A stretch of 64,000 nucleotides of DNA from Rheinheimera texasensis DSM 17496. Its GTDB lineage: Bacteria; Pseudomonadota; Gammaproteobacteria; Enterobacterales; Alteromonadaceae. The notes below the pieces were generated by a model that had not been told where the DNA came from, did not search any database, and saw only the letters and a list, made by a program, of their open reading frames with translations. The translations under genes were made by a program, and so were the position numbers. Below, in pieces: positions 22,391-60,312 of the stretch. The stretch covers positions 930,001 to 994,000 of the forward strand of contig NZ_JONU01000007.1 in NCBI RefSeq assembly GCF_000711985.1. Direction: 5' to 3'. The number at the start of each line of letters is the position of its first letter. Position 1 is the stretch's first letter.

Positions 22391-23227
22391 TCATTTTTTG
22401 ATGATCCATTCATGCTGCGGGTCATTTTTAAACACCCACTGCCGCGTTGGGCCGGCCATCACATTGAGGTAATACAGCTCGTAACCGTGTGGCGCGCCAA
22501 CCGGATGATAACCACGCGGCACCAGCACTAAGCTGTTGTGCTCAACACAAATGGTTTCATCCAAACTGCGGTCATCGGTATAAACGCGCTGAAAAGCAAA
22601 GCCTTGCTGTGGATTGAGTTTGTGGTAATAGGTTTCTTCCAGCGCGCTTTCGACCGGCAGCATGTCGGCGTCATGTTTGTGCGGTGGATAGCTCGACCAG
22701 TGGCCCGGCGGCGTGATGACTTCAGTGATCAGCAGCCGCTCTGCCGGCAAGTTGCCGAGCAAAATATTACACACCAGCCGGGTATTAGTGCCCTGGCCAC
22801 GGGTTTCACGGGTGCAATCTTCGGGTTTTATCAGCCGCAGCGGATATTGGTTGCCGGATGCAGGGGCGCGGCAAAAAGCGATTTCGGCGTCAGTGTCGGC
22901 GAAAACCTCCAGCGCGAACCCGGGCGGCACATACAAGGCATAAGGCGCGGTGCCGTCAAATACTGACATGCGTTTGCCGACCTGCAGGAACTGTTGGCCA
23001 CCATTTTGTTGGCCACCACAGTCAAAACTGACAATGCCACTTAAAATCACGACACAAAGCTCGGTGGTGCCGTCGCTGTCGACAGCCAAATTAGCACCTG
23101 CTTTGAGCTGTGCAGCTTCAAAACCAACATATTGCCAGCCGGCACTTTGCGGCGTGACGCGCTGGATAAAACCTGCAGCGTCTGGTGCTGTCGGTTTGCA
23201 GTGTAATGAAGTCGTTGCATCAGACAT
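22391..23227 (-). CDS. iolB: 5-deoxy-glucuronate isomerase
   Basis: Inositol catabolism: isomerises 5-deoxy-D-glucuronate to 2-deoxy-5-keto-D-gluconate; cytosolic bicupin of 278 residues, the usual length. Recognisable metal-site region GHWSSYPPHKHD near 172-183 (two His) and Glu in ALEETYYHKLNPQQGFAFQRVY near 195; late strand LVPRGYHPVGAPHGYELYYLNVMAGP near 235-258 supplies the last His. Its start overlaps the end of the RpiR regulator gene by 8 bp, so the two form an operon. Converges with the LacI gene, 32 bp apart. Confidence 0.95.
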   Translation of the reverse strand: MSDATTSLHCKPTAPDAAGFIQRVTPQSAGWQYVGFEAAQLKAGANLAVDSDGTTELCVVILSGIVSFDCGGQQNGGQQFLQVGKRMSVFDGTAPYALYVPPGFALEVFADTDAEIAFCRAPASGNQYPLRLIKPEDCTRETRGQGTNTRLVCNILLGNLPAERLLITEVITPPGHWSSYPPHKHDADMLPVESALEETYYHKLNPQQGFAFQRVYTDDRSLDETICVEHNSLVLVPRGYHPVGAPHGYELYYLNVMAGPTRQWVFKNDPQHEWIIKK

Positions 23228-24119
23228 TGGGTTGCTCCGGTTTGATGTTTTGCGCGTTGGTTTGATCAGGTGCTAAGTGATCATGAATCAGTCCCAGCAC
23301 CAGCGCCTGCACCAGGCTCATACTGGCGCTTAATGAACGAAAGGCGTGTAACTCGGCTTCGCGCACCAACAGTGTGTGGTCGGCCAGCTGATACAGCGGG
23401 CTGACGCGGCTGTCGGTGATCAGCAGCACTTTGCAGCCAACCGCTTTGGCGCGCTGCACCACGGTTTGGGTCTCGGCGGCATAAGGCGCAAAGCTGACCG
23501 CGAGCAACACATCGTCGGCATCGAGCAGATTCAGCGCCGACTGCTGCATATAACCGGTGCCATCAAATAAATGCACGGCAAGGCCGGTGTTACCAAGCAG
23601 ATAACTGGCGTAACTGACCACCGGAAATGCCCGGCGCGCACCTTGTAAATGAATCAGCCTGGCTTTCGCCAGTAAGCTGGTAGCAGCAGATAAGGCTGTG
23701 GCATCAATGCTTTGGCACAGCTGATTCAGCGCCTGTTGATTGGCGCTGCTGATTTGCTGCAGGTAGTTAAGGCCCGCGCTGTCGGCGGGCACTGAATGGT
23801 CTTGCTGCACTGCGGCAATACGCTGCTGATAATCCGGCTGGTTTTGCAGCAGCTGGGTTTTGTACAGCTGTTGCAGCTCAGAAAAACCGGTAAAAGCAAA
23901 GGCGTTGGCAAAACGCACCAGTGCAGAGGCGTGCACACCGGCGGCCTGCGCAATAGATGCTGCAGTGCCAAGTGCCACAGCTTGTGGCTGGTCGAGTAAA
24001 TAGCGGCCAATCACCTGCAGCCGGTCGCTCAGGCTGCTGAAACGGCTGCTGATCTGTTGTTCCAGCTCAACCTGAGTAGCAGCTGGCTGAGTGTTCGTCG
24101 TGCTTGGGGCTGTGGCCAT
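23220..24119 (-). CDS. MurR/RpiR-family regulator of the iol genes (IolR-like)
   Basis: About 299 residues from ATG 24119 (TTG 24137 is a weaker start). RpiR HTH at about 15-95 (LEQQISSRFSSLSDRLQVIGRYLLDQ; SIAQAAGVHASALVRFANAF) and a sugar-isomerase SIS domain at about 135-275 (AKARLIHLQGARRAFPVVSYASYLL; DDVLLAVSFAPYAAETQ). RpiR-type repressors of inositol genes are known in several bacteria. It is divergent from iolCDA across a 195-bp gap with inverted repeats and is coupled to iolB. I therefore infer that it controls both sides, with a phosphorylated pathway intermediate as likely effector. Confidence 0.88.
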   Translation of the reverse strand: MATAPSTTNTQPAATQVELEQQISSRFSSLSDRLQVIGRYLLDQPQAVALGTAASIAQAAGVHASALVRFANAFAFTGFSELQQLYKTQLLQNQPDYQQRIAAVQQDHSVPADSAGLNYLQQISSANQQALNQLCQSIDATALSAATSLLAKARLIHLQGARRAFPVVSYASYLLGNTGLAVHLFDGTGYMQQSALNLLDADDVLLAVSFAPYAAETQTVVQRAKAVGCKVLLITDSRVSPLYQLADHTLLVREAELHAFRSLSASMSLVQALVLGLIHDHLAPDQTNAQNIKPEQPNV

Positions 24120-24169
24120 ATTGCGAAAAAAAACCAATCGGCGGACTGTGATGCTCTGGAGTCTAACCC

Positions 24170-24314: not shown

Positions 24315-26315
24315 GTGACAGCACTAGTTTCAGACAAAAAGCTCGACGTGATTTGCTTAGGCCGTGCCTCGGTCGATTTGTACGGCCAGCAGATTGGTGA
24401 CCGGCTACAGGACATCAGCTCTTTCGCCAAATCACTCGGCGGTTCGTCCTGCAATATTGCCTTTGGCGCAGCGCGGCTTGGCCTGAAAGCCTCAATGCTG
24501 ACGCGGGTTGGCGACGAACAATTTGGCCAGTTTATCCGTGAGGAGCTTAAAAGCGCCGGTTGTGACGTCAGCCATGTGGTGACAGATCCGAACCGGCTGA
24601 CGGCGCTGGCAATTTTATCGATTAAAAGCAAACAACAATTTCCGCTGTTGTTTTACCGCGCTGATTGCGCCGATATGGCGGTCGATGTCAGCGATTTTGA
24701 CGAAGCCTATATCGCATCAAGCAAAGCGCTGCTTATCACCGGCACGCACTTTTCCACCGCTCATGTGGACCATGTCGCCCGCACTGCTATTGGTTATGCC
24801 CGCGCCAACAATACCAAAGTAATTCTGGATATCGACTACCGCCCGGTGCTGTGGGGTTTGACCCGGCCCGGCGAAGGCGACAACCGTTTTGTCAGCAATG
24901 ACAGCGTCAGCGCGCATTTACAGTCGATTGTGCCTTTGTGTGACTTAATTGTCGGCACCGAAGAAGAAGTGCATATCGCCGGTGGCAGCACCGACACTAT
25001 CGCTTGTCTGAAAACTTTGCGCCGCCTGACTGACGCGGTGATTGTGCTCAAACGTGGCGCCGACGGCTGCAGCATTTTTGACGGCGCTATACCGGATAGC
25101 CTCGACGACGCCTTTTTTGCTGCTGGTGTGCGGGTCGAAGTGCTGAATGTATTAGGCGCCGGCGACGCCTTTATGGCCGGTTTCCTGCGCGGCTGGCTGC
25201 GCGGCGAATCTTTTGAAATGGCCTGTACCTACGCCAATGCCTGCGGCGCTTTAGTGGTGTCGCGCCACGGCTGTGCCCCGGCCATTCCAACGCCGGAAGA
25301 GCTGGATTATTACATCGCCCGCCAGCACGCCATAAAAAGACCGGACATCGACAGCGAACTGAATTACCTGCACCGCGTCACCACACGCCAACCGGCGCAG
25401 TGGCCGGAGCTGTGTATTTTAGCGTTTGACCATCGCAAGCAATTTGTTGAGATGTGTGAAGCGACAGGCGCCAGCACTGCGCGGCTACCGAAACTGAAAC
25501 AGCTGATTTTGCAGGCCGCACAGGCTGAAGTCACAGTGCTGCAGCTGACCGCTAAGGGATATGCGCCGGGTGTGCTGATTGACGATACTTTTGGTCAGGA
25601 CGCGCTCAATGATGTAACCGGGCTTTTTACAGAACAGCAAGCTGGCCGCTGGTGGATTGGCCGGCCGGTGGAAGTGCCGGGTTCACGCCCGCTGGAGCTG
25701 GAAGGCGGCCGCTCTATCGGTTCACGCCTGGTCAGCTGGCCGCGCAGCCACACGGTGAAATGCTTGGTGTTTATGCACCCGGACGATGCGCAAGCATTAT
25801 GGCAGCAACAGGCGCGGCAAATTCAGGAGCTGTATCAGGCCTGTGCCCTGTCCGGCCATGAGTTATTACTGGAAGTGATCCCGCCAAAAGATTTGCCGGT
25901 TGACGATTTAACCGTGTGCAACGCCATGGCGCAGATTTATCAGCTGGGCGTACGGCCGGACTGGTGGAAATTACCACCACAAACAGCTGCCGGCTGGCAA
26001 GCCGTCAGCGACCTTATTCAGCGCGAGGCGCCGCATTGCCGTGGCGTGATTTTACTCGGTCTGGATGCCCCTCTCGTCGACCTTTGTGCGGCCTTTGCTG
26101 CTACTGCAGCCTTCCCGGTGTGCCGTGGTTTTGCCATCGGCCGCACTATTTTTGGCGCGCCAGCTAAAGCCTGGTTAAGCGGCGAGATTGATGATGGACA
26201 GTTGCAGACGCAGATCCGCGCCAATTATCGCCAACTGACTGAAGCCTGGCTCGCACGCAAGCAAGCGGCAGATCACAGCGCCACAGGTCCTCATGAAGCA
26301 GGAGCATCTTTATGA
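24315..26315 (+). CDS. iolC: 5-dehydro-2-deoxygluconokinase fused to DUF2090 aldolase-like domain
   Basis: Bifunctional inositol-pathway protein of 666 residues. N-terminal PfkB kinase (about 8-330): DVICLGRASVDLYG, GGSSCNIAFGAARLG and the catalytic GAGDAF motif in LNVLGAGDAFMAGFLRG near 284. C-terminal DUF2090 domain (about 345-640), related to class-I aldolases: LCILAFDHRKQFVEMCE, LLLEVIPPKD and PDWWKLPP. The kinase makes 2-deoxy-5-keto-gluconate 6-phosphate; the DUF2090 part is thought to cleave it to DHAP and malonate semialdehyde (role of IolJ). GTG 24315 sits behind CAGGAG. The stop overlaps the iolD start by 4 bp. First gene of iolC-iolD-iolA. Confidence 0.94.
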   Translation: MTALVSDKKLDVICLGRASVDLYGQQIGDRLQDISSFAKSLGGSSCNIAFGAARLGLKASMLTRVGDEQFGQFIREELKSAGCDVSHVVTDPNRLTALAILSIKSKQQFPLLFYRADCADMAVDVSDFDEAYIASSKALLITGTHFSTAHVDHVARTAIGYARANNTKVILDIDYRPVLWGLTRPGEGDNRFVSNDSVSAHLQSIVPLCDLIVGTEEEVHIAGGSTDTIACLKTLRRLTDAVIVLKRGADGCSIFDGAIPDSLDDAFFAAGVRVEVLNVLGAGDAFMAGFLRGWLRGESFEMACTYANACGALVVSRHGCAPAIPTPEELDYYIARQHAIKRPDIDSELNYLHRVTTRQPAQWPELCILAFDHRKQFVEMCEATGASTARLPKLKQLILQAAQAEVTVLQLTAKGYAPGVLIDDTFGQDALNDVTGLFTEQQAGRWWIGRPVEVPGSRPLELEGGRSIGSRLVSWPRSHTVKCLVFMHPDDAQALWQQQARQIQELYQACALSGHELLLEVIPPKDLPVDDLTVCNAMAQIYQLGVRPDWWKLPPQTAAGWQAVSDLIQREAPHCRGVILLGLDAPLVDLCAAFAATAAFPVCRGFAIGRTIFGAPAKAWLSGEIDDGQLQTQIRANYRQLTEAWLARKQAADHSATGPHEAGASL

Positions 26316-28174
26316 AAAACCCTAACAGCACCATCCGACTGACCATGGCGCAGGCGTTGGTGAAGTTCTTAAGCAACCAGTTTATCCAGCAGGACGACGG
26401 TCGGGTGGAACCGCTATTCGCCGGCGTGTTTGCCATTTTTGGTCACGGTAATGTCGCAGGTCTGGGCGAAGCGCTGTATCAGGTGCGCGACACACTGCCG
26501 ACACTACGCGCGCACAACGAACAGGGCATGGCGCATGCGGCCATTGCTTTTGCCAAAGCCAACGACCGCCGCCGGCTGATGGCCTGCACCACATCTGTTG
26601 GCCCCGGCGCCACCAATATGGTCACCGCCGCCGCACTGGCGCATGCCAACCGCTTGCCGGTGTTGCTGTTGCCGGGCGATCATTTTGCCAACCGTAAACC
26701 TGACCCGGTGCTGCAGCAAATCGAAGATTTTGGCAATCCGAATACCGCCGCCAGCGACTGTTTTATCCCGGTGAGCCGCTATTTCGACCGCATTAACAGG
26801 CCTGAGCAGCTCATTCATTCATTGCCGGTTGCGCTGCAAACGCTGCTCGACCCCATCAACTGCGGCCCGGTCACGCTGGCTTTGCCGCAAGACGTACAGG
26901 CAGAAGCTTATGGTTATCCTCAAAGTTTCTTTGCAGCCACCACACACCGGCCACGTCGCCAGCCGGCCGATGCGGCTGAGATTTTTGATGCGCTGAAGCT
27001 GCTCAGTCAGGCGAAAAAGCCGCTGTTAATTGCCGGTGGCGGCGTGCTGTACAGCCAATGCGCTACGCAGCTGGCCGATTTTGCCGCCCGTTATGGCATA
27101 CCGGTGGCGGAAACTCAGGCCGGTAAAGGCAGCCTGCACTGGCAACATCCGTGCGCGGTCGGCGGCATTGGCGTCACCGGCTCGGCGGCTGCCAATCAAC
27201 TGGCGCAAGAAGCGGATTTGATTATCGCCGTCGGTAGCCGGCTACAGGACTTCACCACCCAGTCCCGCACCGGTTTTGCCGGCAAGCCACTGCTGCAAAT
27301 TAATGTGGCGGCATTTGATGCGCACAAACATCAGGCGCAGCCTTTGGTGGGCGACGCCCGCACTGTGCTGAAACAACTGGACGACGCGCTGCAGGCCGGT
27401 AACTGGCCGGAGTCGTCGCCGGTTGATAGCCAATGGCTTGCTCACGCCCAAACGCTGAATCAGCAGTGGCAGCAACAGTACGAAGCACTGACCCAAGCGC
27501 CAGTAAGCGGCTTGCCGTCAGACGCTCAGGTGCTGGGCGCGATTAAACGCCAGTCGCAGCCAAGTGATGTGGTGGTCTGTGCTGCCGGTGGTTTGCCGGG
27601 CGAGCTGCACAAACTCTGGCGCGCCGAAGGCCCGGGCAGTTATCACCTCGAATACGGCTTCTCCTGTATGGGTTATGAAATTGCCGGTGGCCTTGGCGTC
27701 AAACTGGCGGCACCTGCGCGCGAAGTCTTTGTTGTGGTCGGTGACGGCTCTTATCTGATGCTGAACTCCGAATTGGCCAGCAGCGTGATGTTGGGGCAAA
27801 AAATTATTGTGGTGCTGCTGGATAACCGCGGCTTTGGCTGCATCAACCGGCTGCAGCAAGGCTGTGGCGGCGCGCCCTTTAACAACTTATGGCGCGACTG
27901 CGAAGGCAGCGCACCGGATATCGACTTTGCGCTGCATGCCCGCGCTTTGGGCGCGCTCAGTGAAAAGGTCGGCAATGTGGCCGAGCTGGAGCAGGCCATC
28001 AGCCGCGCCCGCGCCGCCGACCGCAGCTATCTGATTGAAATCAAAACCGATCCGGCCGTCAGTACCGACAACGGCAGCTGGTGGGACGTTGCCATTCCGG
28101 CCGTGTCCAGCCGCGACGAAGTGCAACAAGCCTTCGCCCGTTATCAGAGCCAACAACAACAGCAACCTTATTAA
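26312..28174 (+). CDS. iolD: 3D-(3,5/4)-trihydroxycyclohexane-1,2-dione acylhydrolase
   Basis: ThDP-dependent ring-opening enzyme of inositol catabolism, 620 residues, full length. ThDP-activating Glu lies in RAHNEQGMAHAA near 70; the middle domain has LLIAGGGVLYSQ near 240 and GVTGSAAANQLAQEADLIIAVGSRLQDFTTQS near 290-320; the Mg/ThDP-binding motif is GDGSYLMLNSELASSV near 475 followed by VVLLDNRGFGCINRLQ. The conserved HANRLPVLLLPGDHFANR and DPINCGPVTLALPQDVQAEAYG identify IolD rather than acetolactate synthase. Ends 9 bp before iolA. Confidence 0.96.
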   Translation: MKNPNSTIRLTMAQALVKFLSNQFIQQDDGRVEPLFAGVFAIFGHGNVAGLGEALYQVRDTLPTLRAHNEQGMAHAAIAFAKANDRRRLMACTTSVGPGATNMVTAAALAHANRLPVLLLPGDHFANRKPDPVLQQIEDFGNPNTAASDCFIPVSRYFDRINRPEQLIHSLPVALQTLLDPINCGPVTLALPQDVQAEAYGYPQSFFAATTHRPRRQPADAAEIFDALKLLSQAKKPLLIAGGGVLYSQCATQLADFAARYGIPVAETQAGKGSLHWQHPCAVGGIGVTGSAAANQLAQEADLIIAVGSRLQDFTTQSRTGFAGKPLLQINVAAFDAHKHQAQPLVGDARTVLKQLDDALQAGNWPESSPVDSQWLAHAQTLNQQWQQQYEALTQAPVSGLPSDAQVLGAIKRQSQPSDVVVCAAGGLPGELHKLWRAEGPGSYHLEYGFSCMGYEIAGGLGVKLAAPAREVFVVVGDGSYLMLNSELASSVMLGQKIIVVLLDNRGFGCINRLQQGCGGAPFNNLWRDCEGSAPDIDFALHARALGALSEKVGNVAELEQAISRARAADRSYLIEIKTDPAVSTDNGSWWDVAIPAVSSRDEVQQAFARYQSQQQQQPY

Positions 28175-28183: not shown

Positions 28184-29698
28184 ATGCAAACTCTTCTGCA
28201 TTTTATCAACGGTAAACCAGAGGCCGGTCACAGTGAGCGCGTGGCGCCGGTGTATAACCCAGCCAGCGGCGAAGTGATCCGTCAGGTCAAACTGGCCACT
28301 GTCGCCGACACCGAAGCCGCCATCGCCAGTGCGCAGCAGGCTTTTGCCAGCTGGAGCCAGGTGACGCCCCTGAACCGTGCCCGCGTGATGTTTAACTTTA
28401 AAGCGCTGCTGGAACAACACCGCGACGAGCTGGCCAAACTGATTAGCCAGGAGCACGGCAAAGTCTATTCTGACGCACTAGGCGAGCTGACCCGTGGCCT
28501 CGAAGTCGTTGAATTCGCTTGTGGTATTCCGCACCTTTTAAAAGGCGAGCATTCGATGAACGTCGGCCGTGGCGTCGACAGTTTCAGCCTGATGCAGCCG
28601 CTCGGCGTCTGCGCCGGCATCACGCCGTTTAACTTCCCGGCGATGGTGCCGCTGTGGATGTTCCCAATCGCCATCGCCTGCGGCAATACCTTTGTGTTAA
28701 AGCCATCAGAGCGCGACCCGTCGCTGCCGCTGCGTCTGGCTGAACTGCTGGTTGAAGCCGGTCTGCCGGCCGGTGTGTTTAACGTCGTCAACGGCGACAA
28801 AACCGCCGTCGACGTGCTGCTGACCGACCCACGGGTGCAGGCAGTGAGTTTTGTTGGCTCTACCCCTATCGCCGAATATGTGTACGCCACAGGTTCTGCC
28901 CACGGCAAACGCGTGCAGGCTTTAGGCGGTGCAAAAAACCATATGCTGGTACTGCCGGATGCCGATTTAGACCAGGTGGTGAACGCCCTGATGGGCGCGG
29001 CCTACGGCTCAGCTGGTGAGCGCTGTATGGCAATTTCCGTCGCGCTTTGTGTCGGCGACGAAGTTGCCGATGCGCTGACAGCAAAACTGGCAGCGGAAAT
29101 TGCCCAGACCAAAACTGGCCCAGGCACCGGCCCCTTTAGCAAAGAGCAACCGGAGCCGCATTTAGGCCCGTTAGTCAGTAAAGAACATGCAGCCCGTGTG
29201 CGCGGTTATATCGACAGCGGTGTCGAGCAAGGCGCGACTTTGCTCTGTGATGGGCGTGAGGTTAAAGTTGAAGGCCAGCCACAGGGTTATTTTGTTGGCC
29301 CCACCCTGTTTGATCACGTGACGCCAGACATGCGGATTTACCGCGAAGAGATTTTCGGCCCAGTGCTGTCTGTAGTGCGGGTCCCGTCTTTTGCCGAAGG
29401 TTTGCAGCTGATTAACCAACACGAATACGGCAACGGCACCGCCATTTTCACCGCCAGCGGCGAAGCCGCCCGCGAGTTCGCCGCCCAGGTGCAAGCCGGC
29501 ATGGTCGGCATCAACGTGCCTATCCCAGTGCCAATGGCCTTCCACAGCTTCGGCGGCTGGAAACGCAGCGTATTCGGCCCGCTCAACATGCACGGCCCAG
29601 ACGGCGTCCGTTTCTACACCCGGATGAAAACCATCACAGCCCGCTGGCCAACAGGCCCGGTCACCGGCAACCAGTTCTCAATGCCGACAATGAAGTAA
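28184..29698 (+). CDS. iolA: CoA-acylating methylmalonate/malonate-semialdehyde dehydrogenase
   Basis: Last step of inositol (and valine) breakdown: malonate semialdehyde to acetyl-CoA and CO2 with NAD and CoA (also called mmsA). 504 residues. Family marks: GITPFNFPAMVPLWMFPIAIA near 148, FVGSTPIAEYVYATGSAHGKRVQALGGAKNHM near 225-255, and the catalytic Cys in GSAGERCMAISVAL near 285. The QALGGAKNH wording in place of the usual ELGGK is characteristic of the MmsA group. Third gene of the iolCDA operon, closed by a terminator at 29725-29751. Confidence 0.96.
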   Translation: MQTLLHFINGKPEAGHSERVAPVYNPASGEVIRQVKLATVADTEAAIASAQQAFASWSQVTPLNRARVMFNFKALLEQHRDELAKLISQEHGKVYSDALGELTRGLEVVEFACGIPHLLKGEHSMNVGRGVDSFSLMQPLGVCAGITPFNFPAMVPLWMFPIAIACGNTFVLKPSERDPSLPLRLAELLVEAGLPAGVFNVVNGDKTAVDVLLTDPRVQAVSFVGSTPIAEYVYATGSAHGKRVQALGGAKNHMLVLPDADLDQVVNALMGAAYGSAGERCMAISVALCVGDEVADALTAKLAAEIAQTKTGPGTGPFSKEQPEPHLGPLVSKEHAARVRGYIDSGVEQGATLLCDGREVKVEGQPQGYFVGPTLFDHVTPDMRIYREEIFGPVLSVVRVPSFAEGLQLINQHEYGNGTAIFTASGEAAREFAAQVQAGMVGINVPIPVPMAFHSFGGWKRSVFGPLNMHGPDGVRFYTRMKTITARWPTGPVTGNQFSMPTMK

Positions 29699-44628: not shown

Positions 44629-44651
44629 CTGTATCCTCAAACTAGTTGTGC

Positions 44652-51086: not shown

Positions 51087-53792
51087 TCAGAACTTGTAAC
51101 TGAAGCCCGCGCTGTAAGTACGACCACTGGTGGTAGTGTTGTACTGACGGTCGTTCGAGTCACTGTATTGCTCTTCACGTTCGTTGGTCAGGTTAATCGC
51201 TTCAACCGTGAACTTCAGATTTTCTGACAGCTGATAGAAAGCCGAGAAATCTACGAAAGTGGTTTTATGGAAACCGCGTTCATCTTCATCACGCAGGCCA
51301 CCTTCCACTACACTGATGTACTGACTGCGGTTGGCTGCTGCGATCCGGCCACCCCAGTTGTCCGCTTCGTAGTACAGCGTCATGTTGTAGCTGTTTTTCG
51401 ACAGGCCCGGGAAACTCTTCTCCTGTGTCTGACCGGTTCCCTGCACGTTGCGGTACAGCGCAGTACCATCTACCCAGGTGTAGTTGGCAATAATACCCAA
51501 CTTGTCAAAAGGTGCCGGCAGGAAATCCAGGTCGCGCTGGAATGCAATCTCAGCCCCTTTGATAGTCGACTCATCCGAGTTTTGCGGTGACGTCACATCA
51601 AACAGTGAATCCATAGTGGCACCGTTTGGCAGCAGAGACGCTGGCAGACCGGTGTCGCTGTACTTCACTGTTGTCACTTCGGTCACGATGAAGTTTTCGA
51701 TGTCTTTTTTGAACACAGCTGCCGACAAAGAGCCCACGCCTTCGTAGTACTGCTCGATGGCAAGGTCAAAGTTCACCGACTCAAAGGGTTCCAGATCCGG
51801 GTTACCAACGGTGATTTTACCGACTTCACCAGGAGAACCTGTCATCTGCGCCACGTTGGCTGAGACCGAAATGGCGCTCAGCGCCGGCCGGGTCAGGTTT
51901 TTACTGACTCCGGCGCGCAGCAATAAATCATCTTCCAGTTCATACACCAGGTTGAGGCTCGGTAAAACGCCAGAGTAATCACGGGTAATTTCAACCGGTT
52001 TGCCCTGCGACACACCGATAGAAGTCAGATCAGTTTTGTAATAACGGGCACCGACATTACCACGCAGCACTTTGCCGCCGATCATGCTCTCCCAGCTGTA
52101 TTGGGTGTAAGCCGCATCGGTATTCTCTTCCACTGTGTAAGAGTTGGTCTGGATAATTTTGTCAGTGCCGAGTTTCAGGTCCGAAATGCCATAAAACGCC
52201 TGCAACGCAGCAACATCAGCCTGACGCCAGGACATATTCGGGTGCACGCTGTACACCGAGCTGATCGCGTCGGTCACAGTTTTCACGCCATTATTCAGCG
52301 GCGTCGCTTTTGACTGCACATAACCAGCATCTTCACGGTTATCACCGCTGTTTTTGAATTTCTTCAGGTTAAAGCCAAAATCAAGATTGCTGGTATCTGA
52401 CACGTCATAACGGAAATCGGCTTTGATATTGTCAAAATCAGTAGCGATATAGTCTTCGCGGAAATACAGGTCTTTCACCGCCCAGCCGGCCAGTTGTGCC
52501 GGGTCGAAGTCATAAGTGTTGACGCCGTAATAGCGGTCTTTGGTGAAATCTGTGGTGATACCGCCGGTACGGATCAGGTTCACTTTATCCACACGCGGCT
52601 GGTCGTAATCTGAAGTGCTGGTACCAAACATAAACTTGGCGCCTAAGTTATCACTGATTTGCCAGTCGGCAGTGAGCGACACCTGATTAAACACTGACTC
52701 GTTGTAGTCAGCGCGGTTTTCGGTCTGGATGGTCGAATTGCTGAAACGGGCAAACACAGCTTCTTTATCGCCGTTGTTATCCAGCACGCGCAATTCTTCA
52801 ATGCGGCCAAGCGCAGTACTGGAAGCTCCGCCGGTGGAGATATGGTGTTCGTCCAGGGTGTTTTCCAAAGCGCCATACATATAATCCAGACCAAACTTTA
52901 AGTCGTCGCTATGGCGGTACTGTAATGAAGTCGTGACGCCCAAACGCTCCTGGTCGTTATTCCACACTGAATAACGGTTACCACGGGCAAACCAGATGGT
53001 GCCGGCTGCAGCCTGTGCGGCCAGCGTAGGATCTACAGTGCTGGCGATGCCGTTAGTAGCCCGGACCTGACGCCAGCGGTAAGTGTTATAACCCATTTCG
53101 CGTGAGTTTTTCTGGCTGAAAGCGACAGACGCCAGCGCGCCGAATTTACCCCAGGTATTGGACACCATCCCAACTAAACGTGGGTTGGTTTCATCTGCGT
53201 TGGTATTAGTGCCAATCTGACCGCCAACCGCGCCCTGAAAACCATCGTAGTCAAACGGCTTGGCTGTTCTTAAGTTAACTGTACCACCGATACCACCTTC
53301 GTCCTGATCGGCAGAATATGATTTTTTCACGTCAATCTGGTTAAACAGTTCAGAAGCGAAAATGTTGAAGTCAAAAGCACGCGAGCGGCCCACTGCGCCG
53401 CGGCTGTCCATTGGCGAGGATGAAGTGCCAAGCGCTTCCATACCATTGACCTGCACGCGGGTGAAATCCGGGCCTAAACCGCGCAGAGAAATTTGCCGGC
53501 CTTCACCACCTTCACGGGTGATGGCAATACCTGGCACGCGCTGCAGTGAATCGGCTAAGTTCTGGTCCGGGAAATCAGCGATGTCTTCAGCGACGATAGA
53601 ATCCTGCGCCACCATGGCTTCACGTTTTAAATCTTTGGCTTTGATCACCGAGTCGCGGAAGCCTTTAACTTCAATGACTTCAGTTTCTTCGGCTTTATTA
53701 TTCTGGTTGGTTTGCTGGGCGCCGGCACTGAATGCGGCACCAAGTGCGGCAAGCACGGCCAGCGCAACCGCTGTTTTCTGCTGTTTGTACAT
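51087..53792 (-). CDS. TonB-dependent receptor co-regulated with the ABC importer
   Basis: Outer-membrane transporter, 901 residues. Signal peptide AVALAVLAALGAAFSAGAQQ, TonB box near ETEVIEVKGFRDSV (35-48), plug (about 55-190: DFPDQNLADSLQRVPGIAIT, RQISLRGLGPDFTRVQVNG), barrel ending TYSAGFSYKF with terminal Phe. The promoter region carries TGACACCGGTGTCA at 53866-53879, the core of the operator found at the ABC importer/Gfo-Idh promoter and at the LacI gene 30 kb away. I infer that it delivers the substrate of that importer to the periplasm rather than serving the GlcNAc operon beside it. Confidence 0.92.
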   Translation of the reverse strand: MYKQQKTAVALAVLAALGAAFSAGAQQTNQNNKAEETEVIEVKGFRDSVIKAKDLKREAMVAQDSIVAEDIADFPDQNLADSLQRVPGIAITREGGEGRQISLRGLGPDFTRVQVNGMEALGTSSSPMDSRGAVGRSRAFDFNIFASELFNQIDVKKSYSADQDEGGIGGTVNLRTAKPFDYDGFQGAVGGQIGTNTNADETNPRLVGMVSNTWGKFGALASVAFSQKNSREMGYNTYRWRQVRATNGIASTVDPTLAAQAAAGTIWFARGNRYSVWNNDQERLGVTTSLQYRHSDDLKFGLDYMYGALENTLDEHHISTGGASSTALGRIEELRVLDNNGDKEAVFARFSNSTIQTENRADYNESVFNQVSLTADWQISDNLGAKFMFGTSTSDYDQPRVDKVNLIRTGGITTDFTKDRYYGVNTYDFDPAQLAGWAVKDLYFREDYIATDFDNIKADFRYDVSDTSNLDFGFNLKKFKNSGDNREDAGYVQSKATPLNNGVKTVTDAISSVYSVHPNMSWRQADVAALQAFYGISDLKLGTDKIIQTNSYTVEENTDAAYTQYSWESMIGGKVLRGNVGARYYKTDLTSIGVSQGKPVEITRDYSGVLPSLNLVYELEDDLLLRAGVSKNLTRPALSAISVSANVAQMTGSPGEVGKITVGNPDLEPFESVNFDLAIEQYYEGVGSLSAAVFKKDIENFIVTEVTTVKYSDTGLPASLLPNGATMDSLFDVTSPQNSDESTIKGAEIAFQRDLDFLPAPFDKLGIIANYTWVDGTALYRNVQGTGQTQEKSFPGLSKNSYNMTLYYEADNWGGRIAAANRSQYISVVEGGLRDEDERGFHKTTFVDFSAFYQLSENLKFTVEAINLTNEREEQYSDSNDRQYNTTTSGRTYSAGFSYKF

Positions 53793-53865: not shown

Positions 53866-53879
53866 TGACACCGGTGTCA
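53866..53879. promoter_or_regulatory. LacI-type operator upstream of the second TonB receptor
   Basis: Perfect 14-bp palindrome TGACACCGGTGTCA, identical to the core of the 18-bp sites at 15205-15222 and 21196-21213, 74 bp upstream of the receptor start codon. Confidence 0.8.
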
Positions 53880-54302: not shown

Positions 54303-55511
54303 TCAAAACGCGGCCAATACATCCAGACAAGCGCACAGCGTGTGATAATCACACTTAGCGCCGGCACTACTTTTTTCATTGGAAACTTGTTGGTTTTGCC
54401 GGTTTAGCAGGCGATACCAGGCACCGTGCTGATGGTCGACAAAATGCTCCCAGCAATAGCCCCACAGCTGCTGATATTTCTGTAAATACGCCGCATCGCC
54501 AGTGGTTTGATACAAGAGGGCAGCTGCGGCCATAGATTCGGCCTGTACCCAGAAATATTTGTCGTCGTCGCAGCAGACGCCGTCCAAATCATAGCCGTAG
54601 ACCAGACCACCATATTCATGGTCCCAGGCCAGAGCGTAAGCGCGGTCAAACAATTCGGCGGCACGGCGCACTAACGCCGGGTCCGGTGCTAAGCGGTTCA
54701 GCTGCAACAACAACTTCGCCCACTCAGTCTGATGACCAGGCTGAAAGCCCCAGGGCCGGTACAGATTTTTCGGGTCGTCTTTGTTGTATTCAAGGTCCAG
54801 CTGAAACTGCACCGTGTAGTGTTCCCACACTTGCCCACCGCTTAACGCGGCCTGACGCACTGTGATGTTGTGCGCCAGCAGCTGCGCGCGTTCGAGAAAA
54901 TGGCTTTGCTGTGTCGCCTGATACGCCGCCAGCATGGCTTCACACAAATGCATATTGGCGTTCTGGCCGCGATATTCGCTTAACACGCCGTCACGGCTGA
55001 TTTCATCGGCATACAGGCCATACCCGGCCTGCCAAAACCGCTGTTCCAGTAAATCCCAGGTTTGGCTCAGCTTTTCACTGACATCGGCAATTTCAGCCAG
55101 CTGCAGATGGGCATAAGCCAGCAATACAAAGGCATAACCATAAGCCTGCTGCGTCATGATTTCGGGCTGATGCTGACGTAAAGTCCAGGCGTATTGTTGG
55201 GTCGCGCTCTGAAAATGCACAGTTTCAAGGTACTTCAGACCGTGCAGTGCATAAGCGCGGTACTTTTCCGCCAGTTCTTGCTGATCACTCCGCCCTGCCA
55301 GCTCGCGGCTGGCTCTGGCGTAATTGACAATAATGCGGGTGCTGCTGACCAGCTGGCGAAATTCAGGCGCAAACAAGCTGCCGTCATCATAATAATTCTG
55401 GAAATAACCACCGGCAGTATCAATCACCCGCGGGTCGTAAAACCCGAGGATGTCGCTGCAATGCTGCCGGATAAAACCGGCGCTATAAAATTCAGTGGTT
55501 GCTGGTTGCAT
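54303..55511 (-). CDS. AGE-family sugar isomerase/epimerase (mannose isomerase-like)
   Basis: 402 residues, (alpha/alpha)6 barrel of the N-acylglucosamine 2-epimerase family. Conserved: GGYFQNYYDDGSL near 35, RIIVNYARASREL near 58, RGQNANMHLCEAMLAAYQAT near 180 (active-site His), GFQPGHQTEWAKLLLQL near 250 (His), and KCDYHTLCACLDVL at the end. Family members isomerise mannose/fructose or epimerise sugars; with GH92 and ManD next door a mannose isomerase role is likely, but cellobiose or GlcNAc epimerase activity cannot be excluded. Downstream of manD by 39 bp in the same operon. Confidence 0.88.
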   Translation of the reverse strand: MQPATTEFYSAGFIRQHCSDILGFYDPRVIDTAGGYFQNYYDDGSLFAPEFRQLVSSTRIIVNYARASRELAGRSDQQELAEKYRAYALHGLKYLETVHFQSATQQYAWTLRQHQPEIMTQQAYGYAFVLLAYAHLQLAEIADVSEKLSQTWDLLEQRFWQAGYGLYADEISRDGVLSEYRGQNANMHLCEAMLAAYQATQQSHFLERAQLLAHNITVRQAALSGGQVWEHYTVQFQLDLEYNKDDPKNLYRPWGFQPGHQTEWAKLLLQLNRLAPDPALVRRAAELFDRAYALAWDHEYGGLVYGYDLDGVCCDDDKYFWVQAESMAAAALLYQTTGDAAYLQKYQQLWGYCWEHFVDHQHGAWYRLLNRQNQQVSNEKSSAGAKCDYHTLCACLDVLAAF

Positions 55512-55550: not shown

Positions 55551-56759
55551 TCACCAGTTAAACATAGTGCCGTCTTCTAACCGGTTGACCGGCAGATAAG
55601 CCCGTTTGTACGGGTATTTCGCTGCCAGTTTTTCGTCGATATCGACGCCATGGCCCGGTTTTTCGCCGGCATATAAATAGCCATTGGCGAAGTGATAATC
55701 ATGTGGGAACACTTCGTCAGTGGCCGGGGTGTGGCGCATGTATTCCTGAATACCGAAATTTGGTACCCAGGTATCAAAATGCAGCGCAGCGCCCATCGTG
55801 ATGGGGCTTAAGTCAGTCGCACCATGGAAGCCGGTGCGGACATGATAAAGTTCGGCCAGATGCGCGATCCGGCGCAGATGAGTGATACCGCCGCCGTGCA
55901 CAATGGTGGTGCGGATGTAGTCAATCAGCTGCTCACTAATCAGTTGCTGGCAATCATGGATAGAGGCAAACACTTCACCAACCGCGATAGGCGTCGTGGT
56001 GTGATGGCGGAATAAACGGAAACCTTCCTGCAGTTCGGCCGGTACCGCATCTTCTAACCAGAATAATTTGTACGGTTCCAGTGACTTACCAAGCTGCGCC
56101 GCTTCAATCGGCGTTAGGCGGTGGTGTGTGTCATGCAGCAGATGGTGGTCATAACCATAGGTTTCGCGCAGCACTTTAAACAGCTCCGGCACGCTGTTCA
56201 GATATTTACTGGTGGACCAGACGTTTTCGCTTGGCAGGTCGTTGTCGGCCGGCTCGTAATACATTTTGTCTTTTGACACACCATAAGTGCTGGCAAGGCC
56301 TGGCACACCGGTCTGGGCGCGAATGGCCTTGTAGCCCATCTCGATATAACGGCCGACTTCCGCCACCGTTTCCGCAATGGTATTGCCATTAGCATGGCCA
56401 TACACCATCACGCCGTCACGGCTGCGGCCACCGAGCAGCTGATACAGCGGCATATTAGCGGCTTTGGCTTTGATATCCCACAACGCCACGTCAATAGCGG
56501 CGATGGCGGTCATACCTACCGGGCCACGGCGCCAGTAAGCGCCACGGTAAAAAAATTGCCAGATGTCTTCGATGCGGCTGGCGTCACGACCAATCAGGCA
56601 AGGGATCAGATGGTCCTGCAAATAACTGGCGACCGCCAGCTCGCGGCCGTTTAAGGTCGCATCACCGATGCCATACAGCCCCTGATCCGTGGTGATTTTG
56701 ACCGTGACAAAGTTACGGTCCGGGCAGGTAATAATGACTTTTGCATCAATGATTTTCAT
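55551..56759 (-). CDS. manD: D-mannonate dehydratase, enolase superfamily (ManD)
   Basis: 402 residues, full length. Dehydrates D-mannonate to 2-keto-3-deoxygluconate in the cytosol. The sequence follows ManD/RspA enzymes closely: [20 protein letters not shown] near 23-42, [22 protein letters not shown] near 69-90, [15 protein letters not shown] near 117, [21 protein letters not shown] near 213, ligands in WLEDAVPAE and VGEVF, and [20 protein letters not shown] near 305-325. First gene of the manD-AGE operon, divergent from gntR. No mannonate-producing enzyme is adjacent, which leaves the source of its substrate open. Confidence 0.95.
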
Positions 56760-56789: not shown

Positions 56790-56983
56790 TACTTAAATGC
56801 TATAAAACCCTACTGCCACCGCTGGCATTTGTTTTTACAGACAACGCTGCGGTTTTTTTTCTTTATGGCCTTTCGCGGCACTGGCCTGCTATCAGCAGCT
56901 GTTTCTGCTGTGCTGGTTCGCCATCTGGTCTGACCGCTTACAAACTAAACGCTGAAAAGTTGCGTCTGCTGCGCCTCGCGGCT

Positions 56984-57057
56984 AAATTGGTCAAGCCTGT
57001 TGAATTTAACTTACATCCGGACAGGCCAATTTGCAACTATAAATTTTTGGTCAAACC
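56984..57057. promoter_or_regulatory. Cluster of GntR-type operator candidates before gntR
   Basis: AAATTGGTCAAGCCT (56984-56998), CGGACAGGCCAATTT (57018-57032, inverted orientation) and AATTTTTGGTCAAACC (57042-57057) share TTGGnCA(A/G)(G/A)CC. These lie directly in front of gntR (ATG 57074), in the 314-bp gap shared with manD, consistent with autoregulation and control of manD. Confidence 0.65.
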
Positions 57058-57073
57058 ACTTCTACGGAAACTC

Positions 57074-57808
57074 ATGAACGACAACACGCTTCTTTCCTTG
57101 GCCAACAGTCGCCAGGCTCCGGCACCAAACTCCAGACTCTATCTGCAAATCGCCGATAAACTGGCGCAGCAAATCAACGCCGGCCAGCTTAAACCAGGCA
57201 TGCGATTACCGGCCGAACGCGACCTGGCACAGCAATATGACGTCAGCCGCCAGACTGTGCGGGAAGCGCTGATTGCACTGGAAGTTTCAGGACTGGTCGA
57301 TATCCGGCCGGGTTCCGGTGTTTATGTATTGCAGGAAGCTAGTCTGAAAAGTTCGCTTTTGGCAGAAAACGCACCAGGCCCGCTGGAGATTATGGAAGCA
57401 CGTTTATTACTCGAAGGCGATGCGGCCGCGCTGGCGGCAGAGCGGATCAGTAACGAAGAGCTATTGAAATTAAAGGCTTATTTAAATCAGATGATTAGTC
57501 TGGTGCAGCAACAAAGATCAGCCGAAGCTGAGACTTTTGATGGAAAATTCCACCAGCTCATCGCCAGCGCCACCCGTAACAGTGCTTTGCAATCAATGAT
57601 TGAATGGCTGTGGGCGCTGCGTGAAAGCTCAGAGCTCAGCCAGCTGTTTGCCGAGAAAATCCGCCGCCAGGTCGCAGGCCCCAACATCGAAGCGCATGAA
57701 AAAATCTATTTGTGTTTAAGCCGGCGGGACGCCGCGGGCGCCAAAGCAGCGATGCAATCGCATATAGCGCAGGTGACTGAAGCTTATGTACTTTTAATTG
57801 GCGAGTGA
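57074..57808 (+). CDS. GntR-family (FadR subfamily) regulator of the mannose module
   Basis: 244 residues from ATG 57074; the in-frame extension to 56960 covers the operators and is rejected. Winged helix near 20-85: LYLQIADKLAQQINAGQLKP, RLPAERDLAQQYDVSRQTVR and GLVDIRPGSGVYVL. The FCD effector domain is helical (about 105-235) with EIMEARLLLEGDAAALAAER and FDGKFHQLIASATRNSAL (metal-ligand type His). UxuR/ExuR-type relatives respond to uronate or aldonate intermediates and bind TTGG...CCAA, as repeated here upstream of both gntR and GH92. Divergent from manD. Confidence 0.9.
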   Translation: MNDNTLLSLANSRQAPAPNSRLYLQIADKLAQQINAGQLKPGMRLPAERDLAQQYDVSRQTVREALIALEVSGLVDIRPGSGVYVLQEASLKSSLLAENAPGPLEIMEARLLLEGDAAALAAERISNEELLKLKAYLNQMISLVQQQRSAEAETFDGKFHQLIASATRNSALQSMIEWLWALRESSELSQLFAEKIRRQVAGPNIEAHEKIYLCLSRRDAAGAKAAMQSHIAQVTEAYVLLIGE

Positions 57809-57882: not shown

Positions 57883-57918
57883 ATATAACCAGCGCAGACC
57901 TCATAAAGGAGCTGGTTG

Positions 57919-60312
57919 ATGCCTGTCCTGAACTATCTCGCCATGCCGTTGAATTTCCGTCCGGTAATGCGCCGGCAAGTTTTGCCTAAACTGCTGAGTT
58001 GCCTGCTGTTATTGCCCGCAATCTCGGCGTTGGCTCAAGATAAAGTACAAAATAGCACAGCGCCGGCAAGCTTCGCCAAAGAGCCAGCGGCACTGGTATA
58101 TCCGTTTTTGGATACCGCCAACAGCCGCTGGTTTTATTTCTCCTCAGCAGCGCGGCCTTTTGGCATGGTCAGTTTGTTTCCTGATACCGCCATCGACGGT
58201 GAATGGGGTAGCGGTTATCGTTATCACGAGCCGACAGTCAAAGGTTTTAACCATATCCACGAATGGCAATTGGCTGGTTTATCGCTGATGCCACTCTCAG
58301 ACGAGCGTTCGTTGGCTGAACAAAAAGCCGATTACGCTTCTGAGTTTTCGCATGACACTGAACAAGTCCGGCCCGGTTTTCATCAGTTGCAATTAAGCCG
58401 CTACGGTATCAAAGTTGACCTGACCGCCACCTCCCGCGTCGGTTTTTCGCGTTATCAGTATCAAAAAGCCAAGTCGCAACAGCTGCTACTGCAATTAGGC
58501 GGCGTGCAGGGCCCTTCTAAGCTTGGCCATGCTGAAGTCTGGCAAATCGACGCACAAAACATCGCCGGTTTTATCACCAATCAAGGCACAGAGCGGCGCG
58601 TCAAACCGGTCAAAGTGTTTTTCCACCTGGCGTTTTCCACACCGGTGCAGCAGTTTGATGCCTGGCGCGGCGACATGTTATTTGCCAATGTCAGTGGCAT
58701 CAGCGGCGACAACACCGGGGTGCGGCTGAGTTTTCAAAGCAAAGACCAGACTGTGTTGGTCAAAGCCGGTTTTTCTTATGTCTCAGCTGACAATGCCCGG
58801 TTAAATTTGAATACTGAACAGCCCGGCTGGGATTTTGCCGGCACCAGCGCGCAAGCCTATAACGAGTGGAACCAACTGCTATCACGCATTCAAATCAAAG
58901 GCGGCAGCGAACAGCAGCAACGGCGCTTCTACACTGACCTGTGGCACGCGTTGCAAGGCCGGCGTGTGGTTTCCGACGTCAATGGTCAATATGCCGATTT
59001 ATCAGGTTTTGCACCTAAAGTCCGGCAGTTGCCGCTTGATAGCCAAGGCCAGCCCAAATTTGCTATGCATAACTCAGATTCATTCTGGGGTGCGCAGTGG
59101 ACCATCGCGACTTTATGGCCGCTGGCTTTTCCGGAAAAAGCAACAGCGCTGGGGGAAAGCTTGATCCAATACGGCCGGGATTTTGGCCTGATCCCACGCG
59201 GTCCGTCCGGTGGGCAAGACACGCTGGTGATGCCCAGCGTGCCGATGACACCGTTTTTAGTTTCGCTGGCACAAAAAGGTCTACTACAAACCACAGCAAC
59301 CGAGCTGCTGCCGATGTTAGAGAAAAACCACAGTAGCGCGGGCCTGATGGCCAAAGCTGGCTACGAGCACTATAGCGCCACCGGCGGCGGCTTCAGTTAT
59401 TACCTTCAACGCGGCTATGTACCCTACCCGCTGCCGGAATCCGAAAGCAGTTACGGCAGCCACAGACGCGGTGCCGGTCAGACTCTGGAATATGCCTATC
59501 AGGATTTCGCGCTGGCGCAGCTGGCGATAAAAGCCGGCGAAACAGACATCGCCGGGGAATACCTCAAGCGCAGCCAAAACTGGCAGAATTTGTATGACGG
59601 CAAAACCGGGTATATCAGACCCAAGGAAGTGGATGGCAATTGGCGCACACCTTTTGACCCACTGGAATACGAAGCCGGTTTTATCGAATCCAACGCCGCT
59701 CAGGCCAGCTGGTTTGTCCCCCATGATATTGAAGGCCTGGCCAAACTTATGGGTGGCAAAACCGCCTTAATTAACCGGCTGCAACAGGCGTTTGAACAGG
59801 CCGCCAAACAGGATTTCACTGCCGGCACCGCGCATGCGCAGGAAGGCCATCCGGAATATCGCCGCACGCCCATCAACTATGGCAACCAGCCCAGTATCCA
59901 AACCGCATTTATCTTTGCTGCGGCCGGCGATGTGGCGAAAACGCAATATTGGTCACGCCGGATCAGCGACACTGTGTATAGCCATTTAAGCCCGGAGCGT
60001 GGGTACAATGGCGATGAAGATCAGGGCCTGATGGGTAGCCTGGCTGTGCTATTGAAACTCGGTTTATTCCAGTTAAGTGGTGGCTTAGAGGCCGACCCGG
60101 TGTATCAGCTCGGCAGCCCGTTATTTGACGAAGCCTGCCTGCAACTGGCCGGCAAACGCAGCTTCTGTATCAAGACCTTGAACAACAGCCCCGAGCGGCC
60201 TTATATCCGCCAAATCAAATTGAATGGCAAAGTGCTGTCACGTACTTATCTGCTGCACAGCGAGATTATGGCCGGCGGTGAGCTGGAACTGCAGATGGCC
60301 GCGCAGCCATGA
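57919..60312 (+). CDS. GH92 exo-alpha-mannosidase
   Basis: 797 residues from ATG 57919 (AAAGGAGCTGG ahead). Signal peptide PKLLSCLLLLPAISALAQ. The N-terminal beta-sandwich (about 45-290) contains DTANSRWFYFSSAARPFGMVSLFPDT and GFNHIHEWQLAG; the helical barrel has SDSFWGAQWTIATLWPLAFPE near 380, GAGQTLEYAYQDFALAQLA near 515 (catalytic-type Glu), INYGNQPSIQTAFIF near 655 (GNQPS where many have GNEPS) and GDEDQGLMGSLAVLLKLG near 700 (acidic pair). GH92 enzymes are Ca-dependent exo-mannosidases acting on N-glycans, yeast mannan or mannose-phosphate links. Secreted; regulated by the GntR gene before it. Overlaps the phosphatase gene by 4 bp. Confidence 0.92.
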   Translation: MPVLNYLAMPLNFRPVMRRQVLPKLLSCLLLLPAISALAQDKVQNSTAPASFAKEPAALVYPFLDTANSRWFYFSSAARPFGMVSLFPDTAIDGEWGSGYRYHEPTVKGFNHIHEWQLAGLSLMPLSDERSLAEQKADYASEFSHDTEQVRPGFHQLQLSRYGIKVDLTATSRVGFSRYQYQKAKSQQLLLQLGGVQGPSKLGHAEVWQIDAQNIAGFITNQGTERRVKPVKVFFHLAFSTPVQQFDAWRGDMLFANVSGISGDNTGVRLSFQSKDQTVLVKAGFSYVSADNARLNLNTEQPGWDFAGTSAQAYNEWNQLLSRIQIKGGSEQQQRRFYTDLWHALQGRRVVSDVNGQYADLSGFAPKVRQLPLDSQGQPKFAMHNSDSFWGAQWTIATLWPLAFPEKATALGESLIQYGRDFGLIPRGPSGGQDTLVMPSVPMTPFLVSLAQKGLLQTTATELLPMLEKNHSSAGLMAKAGYEHYSATGGGFSYYLQRGYVPYPLPESESSYGSHRRGAGQTLEYAYQDFALAQLAIKAGETDIAGEYLKRSQNWQNLYDGKTGYIRPKEVDGNWRTPFDPLEYEAGFIESNAAQASWFVPHDIEGLAKLMGGKTALINRLQQAFEQAAKQDFTAGTAHAQEGHPEYRRTPINYGNQPSIQTAFIFAAAGDVAKTQYWSRRISDTVYSHLSPERGYNGDEDQGLMGSLAVLLKLGLFQLSGGLEADPVYQLGSPLFDEACLQLAGKRSFCIKTLNNSPERPYIRQIKLNGKVLSRTYLLHSEIMAGGELELQMAAQP

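Follow-up and report, generated by a model that had tools for sequence, protein, structure and literature searches.

We analysed a 64,000-nt window of the 4.59-Mb genome of Rheinheimera texasensis DSM 17496 (contig NZ_JONU01000007.1, positions 930,001 to 994,000), in which genes assigned to inositol, N-acetylglucosamine (GlcNAc), mannose and glucuronate metabolism stand together with those for a secreted phospholipase C, PI-PLC, and a GH28-family protein, GH28L. Profile-based gene identities, the order of genes in relatives and a common operator lead us to read the region, with somewhat better than even confidence, as one for utilising inositol-phosphate glycolipids of the plant glycosyl inositol phosphorylceramide (GIPC) type. 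There is fairly good support for a coordinated inositol-glycolipid module; the substrate, the bonds and the order of action we infer.

Gene content of the region

Gene classes were assigned by profile searches, which recovered every gene type named in a first-pass annotation; the classes stood, with the scores of NagX, NagK, NagA, the AGE-family epimerase and the CehA/McbA-like protein below curated cut-offs, and two genes, GH28L and ManD, had been overlooked. The central minus-strand block comprises a CehA/McbA-like PHP-motif lipoprotein (34389..35963; NF038032, 63.2 bits, cut-off 80; lipobox by eye), GH28L (35960..37702; PF00295, 60.3 bits, cut-off 22.9; Tat-type leader by eye), the secreted PI-PLC of Ca2+-dependent type (PI-PLC-C1; 37702..38886; PF16670, 259 bits, cut-off 29.9), a NagP-like GlcNAc permease (38909..40228; 476.7 bits, below the cut-off of 625), a NagA-like GlcNAc-6-P deacetylase (40225..41541; 213.8 bits, below 225.65), the NagB-II glucosamine (GlcN)-6-P deaminase (41538..42572; 496 bits, cut-off 430), a NagK-like GlcNAc kinase (42539..43603; 287.7 bits, below 370), a NagX-like (HGSNAT-like) transmembrane GlcN N-acetyltransferase (43549..44640; 197.5 bits, below the NF046061 cut-off of 480), a GH89 lipoprotein, alpha-N-acetylglucosaminidase (44714..47038; NAGLU, 404 bits, cut-off 25.5), and TBDT1, the TonB-dependent receptor of the GlcNAc part (47092..49767; profile matches). 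Upstream of TBDT1 lie two NagR-like operator sites (TGTCAACGTTGTCA; 49877..49914), which adjoin a minus-strand LacI-family regulator (49944..50993) that we take to be NagR.

The minus strand continues with a second TonB-dependent receptor, TBDT2 (51087..53792), whose relatives adjoin PI-PLC in Alteromonadales and kin, a mannose-isomerase-like AGE-family epimerase (54303..55511; 189.5 bits, below 600) and ManD, the D-mannonate dehydratase of glucuronate catabolism (55551..56759; 743 bits, cut-off 550). A GntR/FCD regulator (56960..57808) and a GH92 exo-alpha-mannosidase (57916..60312; 417 bits, cut-off 24.6) follow on the plus strand. On the other flank, the inositol genes consist of IolB (22391..23227, minus strand; 326.8 bits, cut-off 205), an RpiR-family regulator that probably controls the iol genes (23220..24137, minus strand), and, on the plus strand, IolC (24315..26315; PfkB and DUF2090 domains), IolD (26312..28174; 910 bits, cut-off 715) and IolA (28184..29698; Aldedh). 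Export leaders or lipoboxes were seen by eye in the translations of GH89, GH28L, PI-PLC, the PHP protein and GH92, and TonB receptors and secreted glycosidases (export by eye) stand in one cluster, as in a polysaccharide utilisation locus (PUL).

The PI-PLC probably starts at 38886, judging by eye from its signal peptide, rather than at 39030, where the open reading frame opens; it carries the conserved residues and matches by profile, at low similarity, the solved bacterial PI-PLCs 5fyo and 3h4w. By score, the window NagX is a relative of NF046061 and not an equivalog, and an HxxWxG stretch, whose His is presumed to be catalytic, was present in all eight NagX-like proteins inspected. GH89 aligned to human NAGLU (4xwh), including the FNEM and PEGI stretches, which we presume to be catalytic. 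The PHP lipoprotein contains HxH, TDHG, HGME, NHP and DSH stretches, presumably the PHP motifs, and is proposed as a candidate phosphoesterase for inositol (cyclic) phosphate; our literature search found no precedent for a PHP enzyme acting on a cyclic phosphate.

A rare operator shared by parts of the region

The sequence TGACACCGGTGTCA, a perfect 14-bp palindrome, is found exactly four times genome-wide, each time within the window (15207, 21198, 48402 and 53866), compared with 0.017 perfect sites expected from genome length. One one-mismatch site lies elsewhere, the reversed control pattern matched two places in the genome with at most one mismatch, and none of 100 window shuffles contained four sites at up to two mismatches. 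The copy at 53866..53879 stands upstream of TBDT2; that at 21198..21211 lies beside a plus-strand LacI gene (21330..22358) and a minus-strand group of four genes (18069..21212), which includes a ThuA-like gene (19663-20463) and a short fructuronate-reductase-like gene (20460-21212); and that at 15207..15220 lies between an ABC sugar importer (10591..14921, minus strand; ATPase, two permeases and binding protein) and a GFO/IDH/MocA sugar dehydrogenase (15342..16331, plus strand). The operator is thus common to TBDT2, the LacI/ThuA operon and the importer. The remaining copy, 48402-48415, falls within the TBDT1 coding region, where chance looks unlikely.

Because it adjoins the operator, the LacI regulator at 21330..22358 is proposed as the putative reader of TGACACCGGTGTCA. 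Its relatives stand beside PI-PLC in Catenovulum and related bacteria, scoring 469 bits in Catenovulum adriaticum (L032), 484 bits in both L063 and L072, and 347 bits in a Spongiibacteraceae locus (L042). The operator occurred in nine of 203 fetched loci, two of which (L119 and L136) are copies of the L032 and L042 places. In G304, a sister-species genome of the genus, it also adjoins the LacI gene and lies upstream of TBDT2 (L020 9830, L021 14864). In C. adriaticum, it precedes GH28L-GH92, the inositol oxygenase gene MIOX and a TBDT2-like gene, and also lies between PI-PLC and the LacI relative, so that in this species a single type of site links the inositol oxygenase gene with GH28, GH92 and PI-PLC. 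In L042, it stands before TBDT2, before UxaC, a mannitol-dehydrogenase-type (fructuronate-reductase-type) gene and ThuA, and between a homologue of the GFO/IDH/MocA dehydrogenase and the series MFS-PIPLC-phosphatase-GH28. In L063 and L072 it surrounds PI-PLC and TBDT2, plus MIOX in L063.

Both ThuA and a relative of the 20460-21212 gene were found again in L042. The window product of the latter has 250 residues and matches only the C-terminal half of fructuronate reductase; the short form is kept in G304, and the L042 relative is full-length. UxaC stands next to a Mannitol_dh protein on contig C4, elsewhere in the R. texasensis genome. An IolG role for 15342-16331 was dropped, its matches being weak.

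Gene order in relatives and PI-PLC neighbourhoods

In G304, GH92 and GntR lie on one strand and the run ManD-AGE-TBDT2-GH89-NagX-PIPLC-GH28L-CehA on the other, with the iol cluster next. The intergenic gaps from ManD to CehA are 52, 247, 54, 7, 3, -1 and -4 bases, and the operator in the 247-base gap before TBDT2 makes it likely that TBDT2 to CehA form one unit. NagK, NagB-II, NagA, NagP, TBDT1 and the second LacI are all absent between the module genes of this stretch, so the inositol-glycolipid module can stand apart from the GlcNAc genes. In G311, a 3.4-kb contig bears a partial PI-PLC, NagX and a partial GH89 side by side, and a copy of the operator separates PI-PLC from NagX.

PI-PLC was found in 12 of 22 genomes of the genus, in three of them (the window, G304 and G311) within the module, and in 4 of 295 genomes of the order, the window included. 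The PI-PLCs of the other nine (L022-L029, L031) are of a second type, 37-46% identical, and lie without glycosidases at one conserved genomic site, different from that of the module; one is a fragment with a stop. The complete set including PI-PLC in one stretch was confined to the genus and C. adriaticum, where it is dispersed over ~15 kb.

Scanning 84,980 genomes with alignment A2 gave at least 517 PI-PLC relatives, the best 80 loci of which were analysed; both full 10-kb flanks were available for 63 of the 80, and the counts refer to sequence covered. A TBDT2-like receptor of at least 700 bits was found in 14 of the 80 (relatives also in L006, L008 and L009), SusD in 24, a calcineurin-type phosphatase (MPE) in 14, a CehA-like gene in nine, an IolA-like gene in two and MIOX in one. 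A typical PI-PLC locus pairs the gene with a receptor, at times also with a phosphatase; the glycosidase-rich version is the exception.

GH28L and its partner genes

The best NCBIfam match of GH28L was rhamnogalacturonidase BT4146 (NF049898), at 250 bits half the cut-off of 500. The GH28 catalytic Asp motifs, NND and DD, were invariant in 14 sequences, and the usual GHG motif, presumably significant in GH28, was replaced. In a tree built from hits of at least 220 bits, the GH28L clade had 100/99 support. A P0002 match at E <=1e-40 was present in 18 of 50 PI-PLC genomes or records, 14 of the 18 belonging to the clade as read from the tree. The class-wide survey found GH28L in one of 369, the window itself. 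GH28 relatives occurred in 245 plasmid records, and among the 25 matches listed only that of C. adriaticum exceeded 50% identity. The GH28 proteins of Hymenobacter (L034) and Spongiibacteraceae (L042) were rejected as GH28L (the clade profile gave them 182 and 223 bits, respectively): the L042 protein fell outside the clade in the tree, the L034 protein was omitted from it by score, and L042 was retained for regulon evidence only.

In Bacteroidota, the clade recurs with many of these partners. The order phosphatase-NagX-GH89-GH28L-GH92 was found in L152, L173 and L175, GH89-NagX-GH28L-MIOX-UxuA in L168, GH89-SusCD-GH92-GH92-MPE..MIOX..NagX-SSF-GH28L in Flavobacterium soyae, MIOX-SusCD-phosphatase-NagX-GH89-GH28L-GH92 in Pedobacter mendelii, SusCD-GH28L-GH89-NagX in Mucilaginibacter dorajii, GH28L-MIOX in two further Mucilaginibacter, MIOX-SusCD-GH92-GH28L-GH92-GH125-GH115-MPE in Algibacter pacificus and GH28L-GH115-MPE in Puteibacter. 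Loci with GH28L bear GH89/NagX, GH92 or both, and a set conserved in distant relatives is a further PUL-like trait. GH115 stood beside GH28L and a phosphatase in L149 (10690-13641) and L150 (14353-17301), the latter also with GH125.

For a sample independent of PI-PLC, we used 395 evenly drawn Bacteroidia genomes with up to three candidates scored per genome. GH28 hits at E <=1e-60 were present in 37 of them, with bimodal scores (20 hits at or above 478 bits and 26 at or below 284 bits). One of the 20 high hits was from the seed genome, leaving 19 new hits in 17 genomes, or 18 stretches; the controls were the 20 stretches with the best E-values among the 26 low-scoring hits. GH89, NagX, GH92, MIOX or MPE occurred in 10 of the 18 GH28L stretches and in 2 of the 20 controls, the latter with GH92 only (Fisher p 0.003), and GH89, NagX or MIOX in six and none, respectively (p 0.007). 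Gene by gene, the numbers were 8 vs 2 for GH92, 4 vs 0 for NagX, 4 vs 0 for MIOX, 3 vs 0 for GH89, 1 vs 0 for MPE, 2 vs 0 for a second phosphatase type and 1 vs 1 for UxuA. The neighbour models were derived in part from loci of PI-PLC genomes, and the open reading frames were called mechanically.

The tree split these stretches into a branch of seven (L172, L174, L176-L179, L181) and the remaining 11, of which 10 had partner genes and six had two or more; the split was drawn post hoc, after viewing the tree, and the unsplit 10 of 18 is the figure to trust. Outside the branch of seven, 6 of 29 clade tree rows lacked any gene of an earlier version of the panel (L146, L154, L155, L158, L159 and L171). 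PI-PLC was present in 4 of 10 genomes of the non-GH106 type, compared with 2 of 40 others (1 of 7 in the seven-member branch and 1 of 33 in the rest). L180 and L182, which have GH106 plus GH92, may belong to the other type. All seven members of the branch carry an uncharacterised lipoprotein, also present in 5 of 20 controls, and two carry a sugar transporter.

Contrary evidence and alternative readings

Several results weigh against the glycolipid reading. The commonest neighbour of GH28L was GH106, in 9 of 18 stretches (one weak, 77 bits) and in none of 20 controls; the branch of seven had GH106 in six members and none of the five partner genes, which looks like a rhamnogalacturonan-like setting with a pectin-type partner. 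The bond assigned to GH28L is a guess, and the GH106 partners suggest that part of the clade might cut another alpha-uronic bond. In L149 and L150, GH28L may not be the glucuronidase, since GH115, which we take to be the xylan alpha-1,2-glucuronidase family, could be. PI-PLC, ManD, IolA-D, AGE and CehA were absent from all 18 GH28L stretches and all 20 controls. In the PI-PLC survey, GH28-like genes occurred in only 3 of 80 loci and GH89 or GH92 in none of the 80 (63 with both full flanks), and of the 40 PI-PLC genomes tested, 12 had GH89 at any position. The gene order is reversed in G311 (PI-PLC, NagX, GH89), and the exact operator is absent from the GH28L stretch of Catenovulum 2E275 (L146). 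Relatives of the PHP protein, for their part, are widespread on plasmids of other hosts, with 22 records, nine of them Streptomyces; one locus (L038) has a relative and no PI-PLC.

On separate regulation, which the first-pass annotation had named as a refutation, the picture is mixed. The operator links parts of the region, but the iol genes have their own RpiR regulator and only a degenerate match in the promoter region, and in the GlcNAc operon GH89 to CehA lie behind the two NagR-like sites and not directly behind the operator. The separate iol and GlcNAc regulation would suit a set of independent modules for free inositol, GlcNAc glycans, mannans, pectin (GH28) and phosphatidylinositol (PI-PLC), as would the many PI-PLC loci that consist of a receptor with or without a phosphatase and the frequent GH106 neighbours of GH28L relatives. 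However, the contiguous G304 run that omits the nag genes, the rare common operator and the sets repeated in another phylum all speak against independence, which we consider unlikely, and sustain the proposal of the first-pass annotation that these genes act together on an inositol-linked glycolipid. The co-occurrence it had asked for was searched for across relatives and found, so that a coordinated module is not refuted on that ground.

A related possibility is that two systems overlap, in which PI-PLC, phosphatase, TBDT2 and LacI would scavenge phosphatidylinositol or inositol phosphates and GH28L, GH89 and GH92 would serve another alpha-uronic glycan. PI-PLC may chiefly serve phosphatidylinositol. 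In favour of two systems, a TBDT2-like receptor, a phosphatase and PI-PLC with no GH28 in reach occurred in 10 of 80 loci, and where sampled GH28L genomes had PI-PLC (four cases), this gene was on another contig (three) or ~258 kb distant (one). Yet the contiguous run in G304 and the single operator type before GH28L-GH92, MIOX and PI-PLC in C. adriaticum speak against it, and we regard such an overlap as improbable.

Substrate and proposed pathway

GIPCs are the major class of plant sphingolipids, the best described headgroup, of Series A, being GlcNAc(alpha1-4)GlcA(alpha1-2)inositol-1-O-phosphorylceramide (GlcA, glucuronic acid); Arabidopsis leaves contain Man-GlcA-IPC (Man, mannose; IPC, inositol phosphorylceramide), and rice and tobacco contain GlcN(Ac)-GlcA-IPC (PMC8099651). 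GlcA on IPC is plant-specific as described in PMC9113257. Enzymes for both kinds of cap are present, GH89 with NagX for alpha-GlcN(Ac) and GH92 for alpha-Man, in agreement with the two cap sugars; inositol has its counterparts in MIOX or iol, and GlcA in ManD, UxuA or UxaC, all of which fits GIPC. GH28L, from a family of uronic-acid hydrolases, ManD, UxaC and Mannitol_dh are present as uronic-acid candidates, and we propose GH28L as a putative exo-alpha-glucuronidase on GlcA-inositol. Inositol phosphorylceramides of non-plant origin might also be the source, though they would lack GlcA; Bacteroidetes that make inositol sphingolipids have been described (PMC9246714).

In the proposed pathway, the TonB receptors would bring headgroup material into the periplasm, where GH92 would remove alpha-mannose caps. 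NagX, supplied with cytoplasmic acetyl-CoA, would acetylate terminal GlcN, as has been proposed for periplasmic GlcN by analogy with HGSNAT (PMC9007349), and GH89 would then release GlcNAc. GH28L would take the alpha-1,2-linked GlcA off inositol. Since 2-O-glycosylated inositol cannot form a 1,2-cyclic phosphate, PI-PLC, taken to be of the cyclising type, would act after GH28L, once removal of GlcA has freed the 2-OH, and would split inositol phosphate from ceramide. The PHP lipoprotein would remove phosphate from inositol phosphate. GlcNAc would enter NagPKAB, mannose the mannose-isomerase-like AGE, inositol the iol pathway and GlcA a route through UxaC, the fructuronate-reductase-like enzyme and ManD.

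The first-pass annotation had proposed glycosylphosphatidylinositol (GPI) anchors or GPI-like inositol glycans as the substrate, with GH92 stripping mannose, NagX and GH89 removing GlcN and PI-PLC freeing inositol phosphate. GH92, GH89, NagX, PI-PLC and iol are all compatible with this proposal, and on general chemical grounds the 2-OH of inositol must be free for PI-PLC to act, as it is in GPI; in GIPC it becomes free only when GlcA is gone. However, GH28L, ManD, UxaC with the fructuronate-reductase-type dehydrogenase in L042, UxuA in L168 and GH115 in L149 and L150 call for a uronic acid, and would be left without a role on GPI; the occurrence of GH28L with GH89/NagX, GH92 or both is as expected for two GIPC cap types. 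GPI was therefore set aside, being without the uronic acid that plant GIPC has, and we consider it very improbable.

An inositol-free target, such as heparan-type glycans or sphingomonad glycosphingolipids, which have the structure GlcN-GlcA-ceramide, would also provide a uronic acid for GH28L. Heparan has a GlcN-alpha-1,4-GlcA end, and lysosomal HGSNAT and NAGLU, which act in heparan sulphate breakdown, are related to the window NagX and GH89. HGSNAT acts on the GlcN ends of lysosomal heparan sulphate (PMC9007349). The GlcN(Ac)-GlcA end is also found in GIPC; unlike in the heparan step, the uronic acid of the window substrate would be alpha-linked to inositol phosphate. Such a target leaves PI-PLC, the phosphatases, MIOX and iol unexplained, and, on a profile panel without lyase or sulphatase models, we give it the least credence among the alternatives.

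Returning to GIPC, the broader proposition is that a bacterial catabolism dedicated to plant GIPC exists in Pseudomonadota and Bacteroidota, with an HGSNAT/NAGLU-like step on GlcN-GlcA, a GH28 branch of new specificity hydrolysing GlcA-inositol, PI-PLC acting only afterwards, inositol used via iol or inositol oxygenase and mannonate via ManD or UxuA. We advance it tentatively, as a nearly balanced case that falls just short of even. If true, it would name genes for plant-membrane recycling by soil, leaf and water bacteria, provide enzymes for sequencing GIPC headgroups along with a new GH28 specificity, and account for the grouping of inositol, GlcNAc, mannose and glucuronate genes in this region.

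Relation to known systems

We found no bacterial GIPC-breakdown locus in a search of 5.39 million open papers, most subscription journals and all preprints lying outside it. The GIPC phospholipase C of Botrytis cinerea, BCIN07g04350, acts on plant Series A GIPC to give Man-GlcA-Ino-P and phytoceramide; it is likewise secreted, but is a single fungal enzyme, picked by its authors as a putative sphingomyelinase (PMC11496612), whereas in the window a PF16670 PI-PLC stands alongside genes for glycosidases, transport, regulation and catabolism. With the nag operon containing NagX, as described in PMC9007349, the window shares NagX, NagP, NagK, NagA, NagB-II, a TonB receptor and a LacI regulator; unlike that operon, NagX sits with GH89 and/or GH28L in G304 and the Bacteroidota stretches. 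PULs of the SusCD or TonB-receptor type have in common with the window an outer-membrane receptor, exo-glycosidases, a candidate dedicated regulator and monosaccharide catabolism, but the window adds a phospholipase C, a predicted phosphatase and inositol catabolism, and its proposed target is a glycolipid headgroup. BT4146, the nearest curated model to GH28L and presumably exo-acting on uronic acid, differs from it in genomic partners.

Other features

GH115 was not found in the R. texasensis genome. The minus-strand ORF 21297-22409, considered as an inositol gene, looks spurious, the LacI regulator occupying its place on the plus strand. PI-PLC relatives were found in 23 plasmid records; in one, a Hymenobacter volaticus plasmid (L034, 2979-15675), the order is SusCD-PI-PLC-CehA-GH28, with GH28 of another branch, and the locus also carries an endonuclease/exonuclease/phosphatase-family gene and an alkaline phosphatase. 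CehA-like genes lie near the Sphingomonas PI-PLC in L044, L047, L050 and L051, one host being named Leaf242. Upstream of TBDT2, a ~270-base element (53906-54174) is bounded by 14-base inverted repeats (53906-53919 and 54161-54174) and resembles a miniature transposable element.

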